DNA of 64,000 bases, from assembly GCA_031289615.1 (NCBI GenBank), contig JAITPD010000010.1, positions 1 through 64,000 on the forward strand, in the 5' to 3' direction. The notes under the pieces were generated by a model, which was given only the letters and a program-made list of their open reading frames with translations, was not told the origin of the DNA and did not search any database. The translations under genes were made by a program, and so were the position numbers. This document shows positions 13,562 through 64,000 of the stretch, piece by piece. Numbering within the stretch: position 1 is the stretch's first letter; each line of letters starts with the position of its first letter. Source of the stretch: Lactobacillaceae bacterium. Lineage in GTDB: Bacteria; Bacillota; Bacilli; Lactobacillales; Lactobacillaceae.

Positions 13562-13762
13562 AATATTGGGATTTGGTTGATCAGCTTCGCTAAAGATTCT
13601 TTACGTTCGGATTTCCCTACACGAATCGAGGTTCAAGGCGAAATAATTCGCCAATTTAACTAACTGTTGGGACCTAGTGTTAGTTAAATGGTGCACCCCG
13701 ATTCGGCAGGAAAGCACATCCGACGACAGAATCGCTACACTGATCAAGAAAAGTCCAATATT
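13562..13762 (+). repeat. Structured intergenic element, copy A (201 bp)
   Basis: Starts AATATTGG, ends CCAATATT; long imperfect inverted repeat (TTGATCAGCTTCGCTAAAGATTCTTTACGTTCGGA ... TCCGACGACAGAATCGCTACACTGATCAA) enclosing two hairpins. Confidence 0.85.
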
Positions 13763-22565: not shown

Positions 22566-22764
22566 AATATTGTCTATTGGTTGATCAGTGTAGCGATTCT
22601 GTAGTCGGATGGTAGGTCCTGCCGAATCTGGATGAACCATAACACTAACACCAGACCAAACAGTTAGTGGAATTGGCGAATTATTTCGTCTTTCATTCAG
22701 ATTCGTGTAGGGCAATCCGAACGTAAAGAATCTTTAGCGAAGCTGAGCTACCTAACACAATATC
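22566..22764 (-). repeat. Structured intergenic element, copy B (199 bp, opposite orientation to A)
   Basis: Reverse complement aligns end to end with copies A and C; AATATT/GATATT termini. Confidence 0.85.
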
Positions 22765-29232: not shown

Positions 29233-29679
29233 TTATAACTTTTCACTATCAAACCAGATTGTTACCGGCCCATCATTGACAAGTGAAATTTGCATATCAG
29301 CACCAAATTGTCCTGTATTTACGATATTACCAGCTTCTATTAGGCTATCATTAAATTGATTATACATTTTTTCCGCAAACTGTGGCTCTGCTGCTTTTGT
29401 GAAACTAGGTCGATTCCCTTTTTTAGTATCTGCATACAAAGTAAATTGTGAAACGGATAAAATCTGACCATCAATTTGTTGCAAATTTAAATTCATTTGT
29501 CCATTTTCGTCAGTAAAAACTCGTAGACCCGTTATCTTACGAACAAGATAATCTAGATCGTCCTGTGTATCCGTCGCTTGAATGGCAACTAGCAGCAAAT
29601 AACCTTGTTCAATTGAACTAATCATTTGGTCAGCAATTTTTACACTTGCAGAACTAACTCGTTGCAATAGAATTCGCAT
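29233..29679 (-). CDS. dtd: D-aminoacyl-tRNA deacylase
   Basis: 148 aa; [43 protein letters not shown]. Confidence 0.97.
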
Positions 29680-29706
29680 CTTGACTTACCTTCTCTCAAA
29701 ATAAAA

Positions 29707-29754
29707 TCAGGTTCTCAATTATTCAAGTCAACTAACTGAACAATATGAACCTGA
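29707..29754 (-). terminator. Intrinsic terminator downstream of relA and repeat copy C
   Basis: TCAGGTTC...GAACCTGA stem followed on the minus strand by TTTTATTTTG. Confidence 0.65.
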
Positions 29755-29773
29755 CATGTTGTGGTGGTTGTGT

Positions 29774-29974
29774 AATATTCCCTTTGTTTAATCAGCTTCG
29801 CTAAAGATTCTTTACGTTCGGACGGACCTACACGAATCTGAATGAAAGACGAAATAATTCGTCAATTCCACTAACTGGTGGGTCCTGGTGTTAGTGTGAT
29901 GGTTCATCCAGATTCGGCAGGGTCTATCCATCCGACGACAGAATCGCTTCATTGATCAACCAAAGTTCAATATT
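29774..29974 (+). repeat. Structured intergenic element, copy C (201 bp)
   Basis: AATATTCC...CAATATT termini; same length, orientation and architecture as copy A. Confidence 0.87.
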
Positions 29975-30070
29975 GCATAATTAACACATTGCGTTAACCT
30001 GATTTTTTTGACAAACTTATTAATTTTTTCATCACGTTAAGACTAGTTATATGAAAAAAATCATCATCTG

Positions 30071-32308
30071 TTACTTAAACGCTCGCTTCACTTCATCAAT
30101 GTCCTTCACATTTTTAACCGAATCCATCACTCGTTCAAGTTGATCAAGATCTTTAACACCAACAGTCATCGAAACAACCGCGTGATTATTGTGATCAACG
30201 CGCCCATTGATTGAACTAACTGTTTTAGTTTGATTGCCAACAATTCGAATAATGTCGTTCAAGAACTTTGACCGGTTTTCACCAGTAATAATCAAATCAG
30301 CATTATATTCACGCTTTGAATTACCTTGTGGCTCTTCCCACGCAACATCAACAAGCCGTTCGCCCAGTTCATTCGCAGCTGCTAAGTTCGGGCACCCAAC
30401 TCGATGAACTGAAACGCCCCGGCCCTTTGTAATGTAACCCACGACCTCATCACCAGGCACTGGCGTACAACATTGACCAAGACGCACCAACATTGAGTCA
30501 ATTCCTTGAATCAAAATTGGATCATCACCCTTTTTACGGCGGGTTCCTTTATTTTGCGGATTTGTATTTCCAACCGTTTCGTGACCTTCAAAGATCGACT
30601 TCTGTTCCTCAGCTAATCGCAGCTCTTCCATCTTGGCACGAATTTCTTCTGTGAATTTATTAGAAACTCCTTGCGCTGACAATTCACCAAAACCAATTGA
30701 CGCATACAAGTCATCAACTGAATGATAGTGCAATTTATCCATCGCCCGTTCAGCATTAGCAGGAGCCATCAATACTTCTGCATCAAATCCCTGCGCATTG
30801 AGGTAACTGGCCAATTCTTGCTTTCCGGCACTAATATTTTCATCACGATCTTGCTTTCTAAAATACTGCTTAATTTTATTTCTGGCTCGCCGCGTTTTAA
30901 CTAATTTCAACCAATCACGGTTAGGCTTAGCAGATGAACTGGTGAGAATTTCAACAATATCACCAGTTTTAATCTCGTAGTCCAGAGGTACAATTTTGTC
31001 ATTGATCTTGGCACCTGTCGTCATGTTACCGACATTCGTATGAATACTATATGCCATGTCTAACGGCCCAGCACCTTGCGAAAGCTCAAACACATCACCC
31101 TTAGGCGTAAATGCATAAACCCGATCGACGAATAAATCACTCTTGACCGATTCCATAAAGTCGCCTGAATCACTCGACTCACTTTGCAATTCTAAAATTC
31201 CCTGAATCACATTTAGCGTTTGCTGGTCAGTATTTTGAACATCTGCACCCTTGAAGTTACCTTCTTTATACGCCCAATGTGCAGCGACTCCAAATTCGGC
31301 AATCTCATGCATTTCGTGCGTTCGAATTTGTACTTCTAATGGACGGCCACCAGGACCAATCACAGAAGTGTGCAAAGATTGGTACCCGTTGGCTTTTGGT
31401 AGCGCAATGTAGTCTTTAAACCGGCCCGGCATCGGAGTCCAGTGTGAATGGATCGCTCCTAAGACCGCATAACAGTCACCAACTGTGTTAACAAGCACAC
31501 GAATGGCTAGCAAGTCATAAATTTCATCGAATTCTTTATGCTTGTCGTGCATCTTGCGATAAATTGAGTAAATATGCTTAGGTCGGCCATACACATTTAC
31601 ATTATGCAAATTTAAATCAATAATTGTTTTTTCAATATCGCTAACTGCAGTATCAACAATTTCCAATCGCTCATTGCGTCGTAACTGCATCGACTTTGCA
31701 ATCATGTGATATGCATCATAATCAAGATAACGCAGAGACGTGTCTTCTAGTTCCCACTTGATTGTCATGATTCCTAGACGATCTGCTAGCGGTGCGTATA
31801 TTTCTAATGTTTCCCCCGCAATCCGCTTTTGCTTTTCAGGACTCAATGCTGAAAGCGTACGAATATTGTGCAGGCGATCGGCAAGCTTAACAAAAATCAC
31901 TCGAATATCGTGTGACATCGCAAGCAACAACTTCCGATGATTTTCAGCAAGTCTTTCGGTATCTGACTTGTATTCGATTTTTGAAATCTTTGAAACACCA
32001 TCAACAATCGCCGCGACATCTTTACCAAATTCGCGTTCGACATCGTCAATTTCAGCTGCAGTATCTTCGACGACATCGTGCAGATAACCAGCGATGACGG
32101 TATCTGGATCCATTTTCAAATCCGCTAAAATCCCCGCAACTTGAATTGGATGAACAATGTATGGCTCCCCCGACTTGCGCTTTTGTTCCTGATGTAAATC
32201 ACAGGCGTATTTATAGGCCCGATCTACTTCTGCAATATGCTCATCATTCATGTATGATGCATATAAATCACGTACTTCCGCTTGAGAAAGAACTTTCGCT
32301 TCTGCCAT
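30071..32308 (-). CDS. relA: Bifunctional (p)ppGpp synthetase/hydrolase (RSH)
   Basis: 745 aa; HD domain HDVVEDT, synthetase, TGS and ACT domains. Confidence 0.97.
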   Translation of the reverse strand: MAEAKVLSQAEVRDLYASYMNDEHIAEVDRAYKYACDLHQEQKRKSGEPYIVHPIQVAGILADLKMDPDTVIAGYLHDVVEDTAAEIDDVEREFGKDVAAIVDGVSKISKIEYKSDTERLAENHRKLLLAMSHDIRVIFVKLADRLHNIRTLSALSPEKQKRIAGETLEIYAPLADRLGIMTIKWELEDTSLRYLDYDAYHMIAKSMQLRRNERLEIVDTAVSDIEKTIIDLNLHNVNVYGRPKHIYSIYRKMHDKHKEFDEIYDLLAIRVLVNTVGDCYAVLGAIHSHWTPMPGRFKDYIALPKANGYQSLHTSVIGPGGRPLEVQIRTHEMHEIAEFGVAAHWAYKEGNFKGADVQNTDQQTLNVIQGILELQSESSDSGDFMESVKSDLFVDRVYAFTPKGDVFELSQGAGPLDMAYSIHTNVGNMTTGAKINDKIVPLDYEIKTGDIVEILTSSSAKPNRDWLKLVKTRRARNKIKQYFRKQDRDENISAGKQELASYLNAQGFDAEVLMAPANAERAMDKLHYHSVDDLYASIGFGELSAQGVSNKFTEEIRAKMEELRLAEEQKSIFEGHETVGNTNPQNKGTRRKKGDDPILIQGIDSMLVRLGQCCTPVPGDEVVGYITKGRGVSVHRVGCPNLAAANELGERLVDVAWEEPQGNSKREYNADLIITGENRSKFLNDIIRIVGNQTKTVSSINGRVDHNNHAVVSMTVGVKDLDQLERVMDSVKNVKDIDEVKRAFK

Positions 32309-44618: not shown

Positions 44619-44676
44619 AAAAATCTCCATGTATGTAATTAAAGCAACGAAATGTGCGAGTTATGCAATATCTTCG

Positions 44677-44730
44677 TCATTTTTCACTTGCGTGGTGGTT
44701 TTTCGATAATAATAGTAAGTTGCGACACGG
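44677..44730 (+). repeat. Short repeat, copy 1, abutting element D
   Basis: TCATTTTTCACTTGCGTGGTGGTTTTTCGATAATAATAGTAAGTTGCGA, near-identical to 46598..46646. Confidence 0.75.
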
Positions 44731-44930
44731 TCCCATTCGGCTTTGTTGATCTGCGAAGTGATTCTGTCGTCGGATGATAGGTCCTGCCGAATCTGGATGA
44801 ACCATAACACTAACACCAGACCAAACAGTTAGTGGAATTGGCGAATTATTTCGTCTTTCATTCAGATTCGTGTAGGGTCATCCGAACGTAAAGAATCTTT
44901 AGCGGAGCTGATCAAACAAAGAGGAATATC
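44731..44930 (-). repeat. Structured intergenic element, copy D (about 200 bp)
   Basis: Reverse complement aligns with copies A-C; GATATTCC terminus retained on one side, other terminus degenerate. Confidence 0.85.
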
Positions 44931-45065
44931 AAACAACCAGCACTACACATCTCAAAGTAAGCCTCCTAGTCAGATTACTATAAAATTGTGAATTTTTTTA
45001 AACTCAGCTAAATTTGCTTAGTGAATCACATAATTTTTTTTGTAATTCAAACTCTGTCGATCGAA

Positions 45066-46433: not shown

Positions 46434-46597
46434 TGCTTTAGGTCCTCTCACTTTACAAAATTAAATTTAATTTACTGATTCATTGTCTTTACCAATTTTA
46501 CCGCAATTCACTAACAAAACAAAGCCACTGAAGCAAAAGAATCCTAAAATCCGAACATCTCTTTTACATGGGGTGCTAATGTTATTAAACACTTTGG

Positions 46598-46646
46598 TCA
46601 TTTTTCACTTGCGTGGTGGCTTTTCAATAAAGATAGTAAGTGGCGA
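46598..46646 (+). repeat. Short repeat, copy 2, abutting element E
   Basis: TCATTTTTCACTTGCGTGGTGGCTTTTCAATAAAGATAGTAAGTGGCGA. Confidence 0.75.
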
Positions 46647-46813
46647 AGCGATTCTGTCGTCGGATGGTCAGCTCTTGCCGAATCTAGGCGAACCTTTTCA
46701 CGCGTACTTTAGCGCCGTGAAAATAGCAAATTATTTTGCTATTCGCCGCGACTCGTGCAGGGCAAATCCGAAACGTAGAGAATCTTTAGCGAAGCTGTTC
46801 TCCGCACCACCAC
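46612..46813 (-). repeat. Structured intergenic element, divergent copy E
   Basis: Retains AGCTTCGCTAAAGATTCT..ACGT..CGGAT and ATCCGACGACAGAATCGCTTCGCC arms; interior sequence replaced but still foldable; GTGGTGG/CCACCAC near both ends. Confidence 0.75.
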
Positions 46814-63822: not shown

Positions 63823-64000
63823 CTGAGCTCCGCCTTTCTGTTTTCCATTTGTAATGGCATTAATTGTGGATCGCATTGATTCTTACCAATATTATGCTGG
63901 AGTTGATCAGCTTCAGCATAATGTTGTAATGAAACATCTTGGCCATTTTATTTAATGCGTGGTGGTTTGAAATGATGATAGTAGGTGATAACGCGAGGTA

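Follow-up and report, generated by a model that had tools for sequence, protein, structure and literature searches.

The closest known kind of element to the repeats described here is the pneumococcal BOX. BOX elements of Streptococcus pneumoniae and S. suis are modular, hairpin-forming repeats of 67-637 bp with inverted ends and target duplications; they follow the plan boxA-boxB(n)-boxC, with boxB in tandem, and ISSpn2 has been proposed as their candidate partner insertion sequence (IS) (PMC3049150). The bcr1-bcr18 repeats of the Bacillus cereus group are intergenic, group-restricted and MITE-like or structured, and one of them, bcr1, is about 150-167 bp long, has a conserved structure and is transcribed together with neighbouring genes in about half of its copies (PMC3446304, PMC2267715). 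The literature on such repeats in the likely genus of our host yielded nothing relevant.

Here we examine a stretch of 64,000 nucleotides from a Lactobacillaceae bacterium, called the window throughout, in which a first-pass annotation made from the letters alone had noticed five intergenic repeats of about 200 bp (copies A to E). These repeats form a MITE family that is real, mobile and modular, and one of its arms contains a structural core that extends through the genus. We hold it to be highly probable that they are modular non-autonomous DNA transposons (MITEs), in which terminal inverted repeats surround one or two hairpin arms, with others nested inside, and which would depend on a DDE-type transposase acting in trans.

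Modular architecture and copy number

A covariance model (R1) built from 31 copies of the repeat unit, which we call M1, recovers exactly the five reported copies as strong matches in the window (130-211 bits, E 1e-33 to 1e-54; Table 1), and the remaining window matches are four to the opposite strand of these copies and one at E 0.33. The five copies are therefore real, and the positions first given for them were accurate to about 15 bp. Copies A and C had been placed in one direction and B and D in the other, as we also find; to this our analysis adds copy E, which gives no alignment with the other copies in the forward direction and has the orientation of B and D.

Table 1. Positions in the window of the five M1 arms and of the larger elements to which they belong (TIR, terminal inverted repeat)
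Feature	Position	Strand	Basis
M1 arm, copy A	13572..13759	-	R1, 211 bits
M1 arm, copy B	22569..22755	+	R1, 206 bits
M1 arm, copy C	29783..29971	- (strand of RNA model)	R1, 207 bits
M1 arm, copy D	44734..44920	+	R1, 207 bits
M1 arm, copy E, divergent subtype (CACGCGT..GCCGTG inner hairpin)	46626..46807	+	R1, 130 bits
Copy C, complete element, M1 arm only, TIR to TIR	29755..29993	-	Paired inverted ends and flank match
Copy C terminal inverted repeat, low-coordinate end	29755..29772	+	3 mismatches to CGYGTTGTGCTAGTTRTG
Copy C terminal inverted repeat, high-coordinate end	29976..29993	-	4 mismatches to consensus
Copy C target duplication, first copy GAACCTGA	29747..29754	.	7/8 match to TAACCTGA
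Copy C target duplication, second copy TAACCTGA	29995..30002	.	Pairs with GAACCTGA
Copy D, complete element, left half of M2 fused to M1	44648..44949	+	Paired inverted ends, 4 mismatches each
Copy E, left half of M2 fused to M1	46591..46644 (bounds by eye)	+	Sequence compared with M2
M2 core part, cut by window end, continues to contig position 64072	63974..64000	-	Covariance model R2

When the copies are aligned with wide flanks, conservation runs past 200 bp. The unit of about 200 bp, real as it is, is not the whole element that it had been taken for; it is a single arm of a larger modular unit, whose inverted ends (CGCGTTGTGCTAGTTRTG) flank M1 and, frequently, another hairpin arm, M2, as well. 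Nor does the element end at AATATT, as had been proposed: in copy C the terminal inverted repeats sit outside AATATT, and the target duplication lies beyond them. These terminal repeats are about 18-24 bp long (TAACGCGTTGTGCTAGTTRTGnAA), and their pattern occurs at 86 sites, compared with 1 for a reversed control pattern. M2 precedes M1 where both share an orientation and is present in full, as a short hairpin or as a half fused to M1 (copies D and E), while further arms can be nested, M3 inside M2 and M4 inside M1. Among 45 elements with paired ends, 15 consist of M2-M1 and 10 of M1 alone; M4 lies within M1 in 8 (4 of them with M2) and M3 within M2 in 5, with no recognised module in 5 and another make-up in 2.

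Covariance models place at least 148 M1 arms and at least 109 M2 cores in the 2.01-Mb genome, and genome-wide blastn gives at least 41 matches. The family has no fewer than about 150 members in this genome of 2 Mb, of which it probably takes up a few percent, and none of the relatives of copy C found in this way forms part of a known Rfam family. Several contigs break off inside M1 arms, for example at C17:1-70, C27:1-70, C54:1-74, C58:14008-14081 and C62:1-87; it is therefore probable that the repeat breaks the assembly and that more copies exist than were counted. At the sites with terminal repeats, most of which were inspected, we found no transposase gene between the repeats and no coding gene between paired ends. 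A profile search for PF00872, the sole transposase family searched, found it absent from the genome, and an IS256-type partner was rejected on that ground. As several contigs end inside elements, the draft assembly may lack an autonomous element.

Target duplications and the rel-dtd site

The flanks of the paired ends carry the signature of insertion. At least 7 of 8 bases match in 17 of the 45 elements, against 0.96 expected from mispaired flanks (5000 permutations; permutation maximum 6), and 7 of the 45 have a perfect duplication, against 0.065 expected; the test was made first on a set of 27 elements and then on the 45. The duplicated target is 8-9 bp long and AT-rich. A clear duplication is missing in 28 of the 45 elements, which age and rearrangement may explain.

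Copy C, the only site covered by our comparison of empty and occupied sites, lies between rel (30071-32308) and dtd (29233-29679). The gap between these genes is 391 bp here, with copy C inside it, versus -1 to 60 bp in all 21 of the 21 congeners checked, where the junction is usually an overlapping TAATG; the short gap in these congeners indicates that the insertion of copy C is specific to this lineage. Together with the target duplications, it identifies a mobile element of MITE type that inserted in this lineage. The suggestion of a MITE-like nature in the first-pass annotation is thus borne out: the elements are short (36-756 bp) and without coding content, have inverted ends (45 paired elements), duplicate their target, occur in both orientations and, in copy C, occupy a site that is empty in relatives.

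The same junction has further features. Between rel and dtd there is also a terminator-like inverted repeat (AATAAAATCAGGTT/AACCTGATTTTTTT), at 29700-29713 / 29996-30009; copy C adjoins one of its arms, and one arm overlaps the target duplication of copy C. The gene dtd, which encodes D-aminoacyl-tRNA deacylase, has an in-frame stop in congener G025 (L178) and was not found in congeners G002, G004, G015 and G024.

Distribution, structure and alternative explanations

The two main arms differ in their distribution. M1 was found in none of 301 genomes of the family beyond this one; three matches to its core in GTDB, single ones in unrelated phyla, were not accepted as relatives. The M2 core is present in multiple copies in 7 of 28 genomes of the genus, namely this genome and congener G022, by pattern, and G005, G006, G007, G008 and G011, by covariance model. 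A model of all groups, applied to 401 genomes of the family with the best 8 candidates taken per genome, found no M2 core in other genera, a search that weak relatives could escape. In G022 (L041, L047, L049, L059 and other loci), many of the multi-copy M2-core elements stand just downstream of a gene, with a short variable hairpin and then T-rich sequence ahead of them, and some form inverted pairs a few hundred bp apart. The loci of the other five congeners (L129-L157) hold a third form of the core, which carries on its left a small hairpin that covaries, GTCGNCGC..GCGNCGA, and some of these sites look orthologous across species yet hold different core variants (L129, L156). The window has no match in Rfam (release 15) at gathering score, and relaxed searches, also with long and related elements, gave nothing convincing, the matches near copy C being sub-threshold ones to snoRNAs.

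Both arms covary. Across the 31 copies of M1, 96.8% of cells are paired and 15 pairs have changed on both sides, with 48 double-changed cells versus 11.9 in shuffles. The M2 core (33 sequences, three species groups) has 144 double-changed cells versus 46.9 in shuffles, controls that do not account for the relatedness of the sequences, and its covariation score is 0.457 versus 0.129 when shuffled and at most 0.109 when slid, a slide control that favours the M2 score because the structure was written by hand on the same alignment. The branched interior seen at first reading is accordingly real, and the covariation among aligned copies stands above both the shuffle and the slide controls. In the M2 core a change is one-sided in 1 cell only, against the 144 two-sided, and the covariation is almost free of wobble pairs; the stems of the core therefore change as full Watson-Crick pairs. 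Copy C folds better than its dinucleotide shuffles on both strands (z of -7.6 for the minus and -3.4 for the plus strand). M1 prefers one strand and M2 the opposite one, and complete elements show no consistent preference, both strands folding comparably. A simple ORF rule supplied the gene calls for the elements lying between scored genes: relative to a codirectional gene pair, 22 of these elements are in the sense direction and 21 in the antisense direction, and a further 7 sit in other contexts.

These data fit a mobile element with structure in both strands, and they bear on a quite different and, in our judgement, improbable account, by which the copies are a dispersed structured RNA that is transcribed, acts through its fold as a cis-regulatory leader or small RNA, and has been spread by transposition. 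The better folding of M1 on one strand and the covarying pairs would suit such an RNA, as would the several copies that lie directly upstream of a ribosome-binding site and start codon. It was these last that led us to consider a 5' leader of the downstream gene; however, antisense copies are equally common, and a consistent orientation upstream of a regulated gene is not seen. The random orientation and the opposite strand preferences of the two arms argue against one conserved regulatory RNA, and for these reasons we rejected a single functional RNA strand as the main reading; the lack of a strand preference in complete elements and of an Rfam match points the same way. An origin from the ends of phage, plasmid or viral DNA, left behind as relics, or as parts of a larger known element, would account for high copy number and dispersal, but we regard it as extremely unlikely and rejected it for lack of matches: plasmid or phage records match neither the composite element nor the M2 core nor the elements of relatives, the core has no exact match in viral contigs, and the inspected sites hold no coding gene between paired ends. 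The 17-base terminal pattern does have 79 matches in viral contigs, a number put down to chance in a collection of that size.

What produced the covariation is a closer call. Gene conversion between copies, or correction of one hairpin arm templated by the other, could account for the covariation of M2 as well as selection does, and the chance that such DNA processes, and not selection on a folded molecule, made it seems to us only somewhat below even. The near absence of one-sided changes in the core is what conversion would favour, as is the comparable folding of both strands; moreover, L129 (in G007) and L156 (in G011), at a site judged orthologous by eye, hold variants of the core set apart by several changes of a whole pair, which is what replacement of a whole copy would give. 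Against this stands the internal loop, which reads GCGACA / CTACCTCGC in two species and has close variants in the five others: it stays nearly fixed while its flanking stems differ between species groups, which suggests selection on the core too. The structural core also weighs against the MITE reading that we prefer, since a simple MITE needs no structurally conserved core across species, as does the absence of an autonomous copy or transposase at the inspected terminal-repeat sites. A bolder proposal, which we rate as rather unlikely, is that the elements belong to a genus-wide mobile lineage conserved by the structural, base-paired M2 core with its nearly fixed internal loop and not by terminal sequence, in which species exchange ends, arms and nested hairpins and the core serves as a recognition site for a host or transposition factor.

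Outlook and comparison with known repeats

If the elements are MITEs as we propose, a DDE-type transposase supplied in trans would insert them into AT-rich intergenic DNA, generating the 8-9 bp duplications, and their hairpin-rich interiors may aid amplification or may merely be tolerated. An arm that is co-transcribed with a neighbouring gene would form a very stable hairpin and could affect termination or mRNA decay. More speculatively, a protein might recognise the M2 core, in which the asymmetric internal loop is nearly fixed. The family offers a natural experiment on the gain, nesting and exchange of hairpin modules in small mobile elements. Its core, in which whole pairs have changed across the seven species that share it, provides a test of selection on a folded nucleic acid versus DNA conversion in palindromic repeats, and insertions inside gene clusters, such as that at rel-dtd, are places to measure effects on expression.

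Like BOX elements, the repeats described here are intergenic, modular and hairpin-forming, are bounded by terminal inverted repeats and target duplications, cover a similar range of lengths (36-756 bp here versus 67-637 bp), reach high copy number in a genome of about 2 Mb and contain modules that may be absent or multiple. They depart from BOX in that different hairpin arms (M2, M1, M3 and M4) stand side by side and nested, in place of a tandem array like that of boxB, in that the ends are unrelated and in that no partner IS was found here; it is the plan, not a comparison of module sequences, that sets the two apart. With the bcr repeats they share a structured, intergenic and group-restricted character, whereas bcr1-bcr18, by their description, are separate families that do not form one modular set in which ends are shared and arms nested. 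Finally, ERIC, RUP and similar MITEs are short simple palindromes that duplicate TA. The present family resembles them as a high-copy, non-coding, hairpin-forming repeat found between genes in both orientations, and is distinguished from them by its 8-9 bp duplication and its branched, modular interior.
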